34,741 nucleotides of DNA from Nitrosopumilaceae archaeon. GTDB lineage: Archaea > Thermoproteota > Nitrososphaeria > Nitrososphaerales > Nitrosopumilaceae. Below the pieces are notes generated by a model that saw nothing but the letters and a program-made list of their open reading frames with translations, did no database searches and was not told the origin of the DNA. Shown piece by piece: positions 33,403 through 34,741 of this stretch. The position numbers were made by a program, and so were the translations under genes. The DNA is taken from NCBI GenBank assembly GCA_005798405.1, contig SYJQ01000029.1, positions 1-34,741 on the forward strand, written 5' to 3'. How positions within the stretch are numbered: the first letter of the stretch is position 1; each line of letters starts with the position of its first letter.

Positions 33403-34320
33403 ATGGTATTACAATCCCTTAATGCTGATAATTGTCCTCGTTGTGCAAAAAATTCTCTCTTAACAGATGATGTTACTGGAGAAAGATTTTGTGGTAAATG
33501 CGGATATGTAATTTCTGAGAAATCTCAAGAGTCTGGCCCTGAATGGAGATCTTTTACACAGGATGAACACGGCAACAAAGCAAGAGCAGGTGCACCAACA
33601 TCCCTGACCATGCATGACATGGGATTATCCACAATTATTAATCCTATGAATAAGGATGCATCTGGAAAACCACTCACAGCATCAATGAAAAGTACCATTG
33701 AACGATTAAGAACATGGGATAGTAGAAGTCAAGTTCATGAATCTGTTGATAGAAATCTTAGACAAGCATTAAGTGAATTAAATAGATTAAAAGATAAACT
33801 TGCATTATCTGATGCCGTAATTGAAAAAGCAGCTTATATTTACAGAAAAGCCATTGAGAAAAAATTAGTACGTGGAAGATCTATTTCTGCAATGATTGCA
33901 TCTGCACTTTATGCTGCATGCAGGGATACAGAAACACCAAGAACACTAAATGATGTGGGTGAAGCTGCTAATTTGAAGAAAAAAGATATTGCACGATGTT
34001 ATAGATTACTGCATCGAGAATTAGATCTAAAGATGCCTGTAGTTGATCCAATTCAATGTGTTGCACGTATTGCAAGTAGAATCGGCATTACAGAAAAAAC
34101 AAAACGTTACGCTGCCAAGGTTCTAAAAATATCTCAGGAACATGAGGAATCTGCAGGAAAAGATCCAATGGGATTGGCTGCAGCCGCATTGTATTTGGCA
34201 TGTGTCAAAAACGGTGAGGATATCACTCAACGTGATATTGCAGAAGCTGCAAGTGTGACTGAAGTAACAATAAGAAATAGATACAAAGGTCTAAAATTAG
34301 ATCAAAACATGGATCTATAA
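33403..34320 (+). CDS. tfb: Transcription initiation factor TFB
   Basis: 305 residues from ATG 33403, with a TATA-like ttattataatg about 25-30 bases upstream. It is the archaeal TFIIB homolog that binds TBP-DNA and recruits RNA polymerase. The zinc ribbon has Cys11, 14, 30 and 33. A B-finger/reader region follows (EWRSFTQDEHGNKARAGAPT). Two cyclin-like repeats are at about 110-200 and 210-300, with SISAMIASALYAACRDTETP in the first and DPMGLAAAALYLACVKNGED in the second. Full length and intact. Thaumarchaea usually carry several tfb copies, so this may be one paralog. Confidence 0.97.
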   Translation: MVLQSLNADNCPRCAKNSLLTDDVTGERFCGKCGYVISEKSQESGPEWRSFTQDEHGNKARAGAPTSLTMHDMGLSTIINPMNKDASGKPLTASMKSTIERLRTWDSRSQVHESVDRNLRQALSELNRLKDKLALSDAVIEKAAYIYRKAIEKKLVRGRSISAMIASALYAACRDTETPRTLNDVGEAANLKKKDIARCYRLLHRELDLKMPVVDPIQCVARIASRIGITEKTKRYAAKVLKISQEHEESAGKDPMGLAAAALYLACVKNGEDITQRDIAEAASVTEVTIRNRYKGLKLDQNMDL

Positions 34321-34418
34321 AATAATTTTATTCTTTAACTGTTAGCTAATTGTGAATCTATAGTTACAATATGTTGACTATGTTTTCGTATTATCAATGA
34401 AAACAGTTTAGAATCAAC

Positions 34419-34526
34419 TTACCTACCTGTAACATAAGTGATATACAATATTGATGAAACAATAACTGAAATTCCTATAATTATTACTAGTTCTTTTTTT
34501 GAAAAAACACTTGCTCTAAAACTCAC
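34419..34526 (-). CDS. Single-TM micro-protein (35 aa)
   Basis: 35 residues from GTG 34526 to TAA 34419-34421. Residues 10-30 form one clean TM helix (KKELVIIIGISVIVSSIL), followed by YITYVTGR. The GTG start is supported by a promoter-like element (taaatccttaagtt, 34548-34561) 21 bases upstream, identical to the one ahead of the next small gene. A TM peptide of this size could modulate a membrane protein. No homology claimed. Confidence 0.6.
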   Translation of the reverse strand: MSFRASVFSKKELVIIIGISVIVSSILYITYVTGR

Positions 34527-34561
34527 GAATTTTCTGTAAGAATTATGAACTTAAGGATTTA
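34527..34561 (-). promoter_or_regulatory. Promoter of the single-TM micro-gene
   Basis: On the minus strand: taaatccttaagtt (34561-34548), a 21-base spacer ending agaaaattc, then GTG. The same 14-mer, 21-base spacer and final nine bases are found before the next small gene at 34707-34741. Confidence 0.6.
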
Positions 34562-34577
34562 GGAAAGAGTTTAGAAT

Positions 34578-34706
34578 TTAATCTTCTTCAGGTTCATCAT
34601 CTACACTTTCAAAAGTCATTTTCTTTTTTTGATATGACTCGCATTTTTCCATTATGCCAAATTCATTCTTGAACTTGCCTTTTCCATCACATCTAAAACA
34701 AGTCAT
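34578..34706 (-). CDS. Small CxxCxGxG protein (42 aa)
   Basis: 42 residues from ATG 34706 to TAA 34578-34580. The N-terminus is MTCFRCDGKGKFKN, with a CxxCxGxG motif like one DnaJ zinc knuckle, then a third Cys (KCESYQ), and the tail is acidic (DDEPEED). One knuckle alone cannot complete a four-Cys site unless it dimerises or uses a His or partner. It has a twin of the micro-gene promoter 21 bases upstream. Function unknown. Confidence 0.65.
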   Translation of the reverse strand: MTCFRCDGKGKFKNEFGIMEKCESYQKKKMTFESVDDEPEED

Positions 34707-34741
34707 GAATTTTCTAATTTTTCTAAAAACTTAAGGATTTA
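34707..34741 (-). promoter_or_regulatory. Promoter of the CxxCxGxG micro-gene
   Basis: On the minus strand: taaatccttaagtt (34741-34728), a 21-base spacer ending agaaaattc, then ATG 34706. It reaches the window edge, so any further upstream elements are unseen. The likely TATA-like core is cttaagtt at about -25 to -30, giving a leaderless transcript. Confidence 0.6.

Follow-up and report, generated by a model that had tools for sequence, protein, structure and literature searches.

The window analysed here, a stretch of 34,741 nt, is the complete contig C16 of the genome carrying it (G000). Near its right end a TFB (TFIIB-family) gene on the plus strand (33403..34320) is followed by two small genes on the minus strand, namely a 35-aa single-TM peptide with a GTG start (34419..34526) and a 42-aa CxxCxGxG zinc-ribbon-like small protein starting with ATG (34578..34706), both predicted to be leaderless. 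A previous sequence-only reading of this DNA had listed these frames of 35 and 42 codons and had seen in front of each the same 14-mer, the same distance and a start codon, which an exact search bears out: the minus strand has two copies of TAAATCCTTAAGTT, at 34548-34561 and 34728-34741, in each case followed by 21 nt and then by a start, GTG at 34526 or ATG at 34706. Searching the whole of G000 for the 14-mer plus 18-24 nt plus a start codon returned only these two places. Core site 1, TAAATCCTTAAGTT (34728..34741, minus strand), is BRE/TATA-like and the predicted promoter of the 42-aa gene, from which it is separated by a 21-nt spacer (34707..34727, minus strand); core site 2, CTAAATCCTTAAGTT (34548..34562, minus strand), is the predicted promoter of the TM peptide as well as the putative border between both units, and is likewise followed by a spacer of 21 nt (34527..34547, minus strand). 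The last nine spacer bases, AGAAAATTC, are indeed identical behind both sites, as had been noticed, but they are not private to the pair, being part of the genus consensus ATAcAAAATTTAGAAAA. A 3' tail element, TTCTAAACTC (34567..34576, minus strand), follows the stop of the 42-aa gene ahead of site 2 and recurs after the stop of the TM peptide as TTCTAAACTG (34404..34413, minus strand); across the genus, TCTAAACT is found at most 30 nt upstream of 15 of 78 sites and in none of the control stretches.

Conservation among relatives indicates that both small genes are real and that the GTG is the right start, in agreement with the sequence-only reading. The TM peptide is 74-94% identical in five relatives, four of which share the 14-mer, the 21 nt and the GTG, while the fifth, from a sister genus, has ATG at the position of the GTG; altogether, the start codon is GTG in five genomes, and ATG or TTG at the corresponding position in the others. 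Among the 18 genus members, five have the peptide, with differing neighbours, and it also occurs in further genomes of two other genera; its dN/dS is below 1 in all pairs, albeit over 35 codons only. The 42-aa protein occurs in 27 genomes of two other Nitrosopumilaceae genera, and both cysteine pairs are kept in the printed homologues; in the 17 other genus members no intact copy was found, G002 having a weak match with a stop. In the window protein itself, the last Cys of the second pair, present in the printed homologues from other genera, is replaced by Tyr (KCESYQ), so that the metal site of this protein may be damaged. Pfam and NCBIfam scans of both proteins gave nothing above cut-off, and only a sub-threshold anti-TRAP match (E 0.036).

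The contig ends within site 1, the first base of which (C) falls beyond the window on the neighbouring contig C31. The first 23 bases of C31 are the final 23 of C16, and the core runs on leftwards in C31 as TTCCTAAATCCTTAAGTT. The join of both contigs is supported by the gene order TFB - TPR - radical SAM, which is kept in 16 genomes of the genus. Since a similar site stands at the very start of contig C22 (G000:C22:1-32), the assembly probably broke at the repeated element. In draft genomes, contig ends often coincide with a site or are close to one, not only in G000:C22:1-32 but also at G003:C6:44-77, G005:C83:11-48, G005:C163:6 and G013:C102:23-58 and in G012:C41 and G012:C37, as would be expected if sites are repeated or if arrays vary within the sampled population.

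With the TFB gene as its conserved flank, the gap between the TFB and TPR genes measures 58-70 bp in eight genomes as opposed to 524 bp, containing two units, in G000. By this comparison, the window pair is a two-unit insert between the TFB and the TPR gene. The same gap is otherwise filled in G010 (~1.2 kb, three sites) and in G008 (658 bp, one site), and the TFB-side terminal segment of the insert (34363..34403) is common to the differently filled array of G010. Next to this segment, AATCTATA (34355..34362) has a second copy at the opposite end of the insert, on C31 beside the TPR gene. This repeat is a possible target duplication, and is given that grade because it is present in G000 but decayed in G010 and adjoins the edge of the TPR promoter. 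The TFB-TPR gap is a hot spot of insertion whose fillings, of several unrelated kinds (G010, G008, G015, G001, G007, G002, G009), do not all contain a site, an example being a UspA-like gene in G002 and G009.

The element is by no means confined to this locus. The exact core CTAAATCCTTAAGT has 86 copies in 18 genomes of the genus, which is probably Nitrosarchaeum, compared to 1 for the reversed control, and 7 copies in 182 other genomes of the family. A longer site pattern matched 12 stretches among 84,980 species genomes: seven in Nitrosarchaeum records, one in Nitrosotenuis and four in two MAGs (two each) labelled Nitrosopumilus and Nitrososphaeraceae, which are probably members of the Nitrosarchaeum genus set as well. 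At E up to 0.1, a profile search gave 4 to 51 matches per genus genome, and 78 non-redundant sites yield the consensus TTYCTAAATCCTTAAGTTnATAcAAAATTTAGAAAA. Around its TATA box we noticed a partial inverted repeat, TTYCTAAAT/ATTTAGAAA (site positions -3..+31, genus-wide), of which at least 7 of 9 pairs are present at the consensus offset in 18 of the 78 sites, and in 0-1 at other offsets. The extended site had no match among viral contigs; viral carriage was considered and rejected, as three contigs fit a looser pattern only, with sites that are not followed by a frame at the expected spacing.

Start codons are most frequent exactly 21 nt downstream of the core, where 27 of the 78 sites have one, compared to ~4 of 78 at distant offsets, and this peak, together with the genus-wide count, excludes chance. 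A frame of at least 20 aa begins at 19-24 nt in 55 sites, whereas the other 23 have no such leaderless frame. The earlier view of the 14-mer as a promoter at fixed distance thus gains from the genus-wide start peak. Archaeal leaderless genes have a TATA-like box ~25 nt before the start and a BRE upstream of it, and the core, ending 21 nt before the start, has this geometry. Furthermore, ordinary promoters of the genus, as extracted by EM on 147 ORFs, resemble AAATYYTTAATT and mostly lie 18-22 nt before starts, which suggests that the core is a BRE/TATA of the ordinary genus type. By sequence and position, the 14-mer fits the archaeal BRE/TATA core promoter of leaderless genes.

Could it then be nothing else than an ordinary consensus promoter, on which independent genes converged, or which they kept vertically, as the strongest BRE/TATA? 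In other genera, the same genes do have related promoters (AAA[AT]CCTTAA[GT]TT) at a similar distance, once even with the exact core. However, the number of exact copies per genome drops more than 100-fold outside the genus, the sites cluster within it, and one-mismatch forms are barely above the control level. Allowing up to one mismatch gives 168 sites, about half of them exact, compared to 66 with the control, which is one single reversed pattern. The exact form of the core is over-represented. A plain consensus promoter is insufficient, given the genus restriction, the arrays and the unit-level indels described below, and we regard this explanation as very improbable.

The sites are arranged in arrays. 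In four low-contig genomes, neighbouring sites less than 2.5 kb apart were counted 17 times, always on the same strand, where ~1.2 such neighbours would be expected by chance. One-gene units thus follow each other in one orientation with the repeated site between them, an integron-type layout, and the gap from a stop to the next site is commonly 8-23 nt (15 nt in the window). The sites mostly precede unrelated small, mainly accessory, genes, which fall into 47 families, 30 of them single; a Pfam scan of ten site-linked genes gave Fic, cupin, Mrr-type nuclease, subtilase and SHOCT domains among unknowns. In another genus, the reverse strand of G159 (L226 1498-2888) has a run of small same-strand genes with looser promoters, comprising the same two families (CxxC and TM peptide) plus a zinc-finger-like peptide and a nuclease-like protein. 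The exact site is dispensable for arrays, since other genera keep similar small-gene runs with looser promoters.

Comparison between species, in which many genomes are draft assemblies, places gains and losses at the site. We aligned site-centred stretches of different genomes. Of the alignments extending at least 90 nt downstream (n=51), most begin within 7 nt of the left edge of the core; about half of those extending at least 90 nt upstream (n=28) end between 12 nt before this edge and 25 nt after it. For instance, two conserved genes are separated by one site in G017, G013, G004 and G011, whereas G016 has two sites there, around an extra 126-aa gene, both flanks of this unit being homologous to the four others; the left site carries mismatches (CTAAATCATTAAATT), and the 126-aa family also follows sites in G005, G008, G009, G010 and G014. 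The G016 case and the breakpoints alike amount to unit-level gain and loss at the site between relatives. Furthermore, G000 and G003 have the TM unit next to different neighbours, and over 184 nt, site included, it is 95% identical between them, compared to 87.5% for the TFB genes. Since the core is the same in every copy, a crossover inside it leaves the same trace as one just beside it, and selection alone would push surviving junctions to the core, because a core promoter must stay beside its gene.

These observations bear on the main rival of a cassette-like exchange, a regulon of one TFB or activator. The exact sequence would then be bound by a TFB paralogue or an activator that is specific to the genus and drives accessory small genes; copies of the sequence would be identical as the protein tolerates no change, and the genes would turn over by ordinary gain and loss. 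The site indeed coincides with BRE/TATA geometry and start distance, it stands mostly in front of accessory genes, the inverted repeat flanks the TATA box, and each genome has several TFB paralogues. A regulon alone, however, leaves unexplained that genomes differ by single units with a site at either end, that units are packed head to tail on one strand and that one unit is 95% identical between unrelated flanks, and it needs fourteen fixed positions, which is unusual for TBP/TFB binding. We consider it rather unlikely. The rival readings overlap with the explanation we prefer, so that their likelihoods need not add up to certainty.

The explanation that we hold to be probable is that these are cassette-like units which each carry a promoter of their own and come and go through recombination at the common promoter core. 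The repeated 14-mer would be at once the BRE/TATA core of a leaderless promoter and the border of small gene units in the genus, a unit consisting of core site, ~21-nt spacer, one small accessory gene and a short tail, packed head to tail with others on one strand. Recombination between core copies, in cis or with incoming DNA, would remove or add a whole unit, and after such an exchange every remaining gene would keep a complete promoter. From these sequence comparisons we infer both transcription from the sites and recombination inside the core. The co-regulation or promoter duplication proposed by the sequence-only reading is incomplete: genus-wide, the element precedes dozens of mostly unrelated genes, and the duplication of a promoter between two genes misses the same-strand arrays and the gain and loss of units with junctions at the element.

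As the agent of exchange, we favour RecA/homology-driven recombination rather than a dedicated recombinase. A tyrosine recombinase was considered but is not put forward as the agent: the Phage_integrase family is found near arrays in some genomes, but not in G004 and G016, which are well covered and both bear sites. At most array loci no Phage_integrase lies within a few kb, and among genomes its count has no visible relation to the number of sites. A dedicated archaeal cassette exchange acting in trans across Nitrosarchaeum, with the core promoter as recombination site, seems unlikely on the whole; each inserted gene would then be transcribed at once, as the recombination site is itself a core promoter, and the system possibly would reach other Nitrosopumilaceae, with looser sites. 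In a strictly integron-like version, a dedicated site-specific recombinase in trans would use the element as its recombination site. The sharp site with its partial inverted repeat, the junctions at the site, the unit-level gain and loss and the different fillings of the TFB-TPR locus in G000, G010 and G008 speak for it; the integrase results just given, as well as the lack of any Rfam match at gathering threshold in seven array loci, speak against it, and we judge it distinctly improbable.

The likeness to integron cassette arrays and CALINs is nevertheless considerable, as both comprise small unrelated genes, one per unit and in one orientation, with a repeated site between the units and unit-level gain and loss, and CALINs also have no integrase nearby. 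In contrast to integrons, in which attC lies 3' of a usually promoterless gene, here a BRE/TATA core lies 5' of each gene, and no linked integron integrase (a tyrosine recombinase) was found. As to folded R/L boxes of the attC type, a general Rfam scan gave no match, and the sequence offers only the partial inverted repeat. Thus, the resemblance is one of layout and behaviour, and membership fails on the linked integrase. CALINs, including archaeal ones, have been reported in a paper whose text does not contain 'Nitroso' (PMC9668308).

Compared to ordinary archaeal BRE/TATA leaderless promoters, which it resembles in sequence type and start distance, the element differs in being a near-invariant 14-mer that is genus-restricted, clustered and placed at homology breakpoints. 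The dif modules of Acinetobacter plasmids, gene modules flanked by Xer sites, are similarly discrete small modules bounded by short sites with inverted arms. However, dif sites are of the Xer-type 11-6-11 and alternate in orientation, whereas here the arms are 17 bp apart (9-17-9) instead of ~6 and all sites are in direct orientation, and so differ from the Xer type. Related archaea also gain accessory genes by integrated mobile elements, and thaumarchaeal ones have been sorted into five classes (proviruses, casposons, ICEs, cryptic integrated and IS-like elements), none of which consists of promoter-bounded single-gene units, the word 'promoter' being absent from the text (PMC6563490). Our literature search, which covered open-access papers, found no prior description of such promoter-bordered units.

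For annotation, our analysis would pin down the start codons of many missed micro-genes, and CTAAATCCTTAAGT followed by ~21 nt and a start may serve as a searchable tag for them. In a wider sense, a near-identical site that marks the borders of small interchangeable units throughout Nitrosarchaeum is a clue to the gain and loss of small genes, and would offer an account of how ammonia-oxidising archaea assemble their accessory small genes, namely as promoter-carrying units that are exchanged at the promoter.
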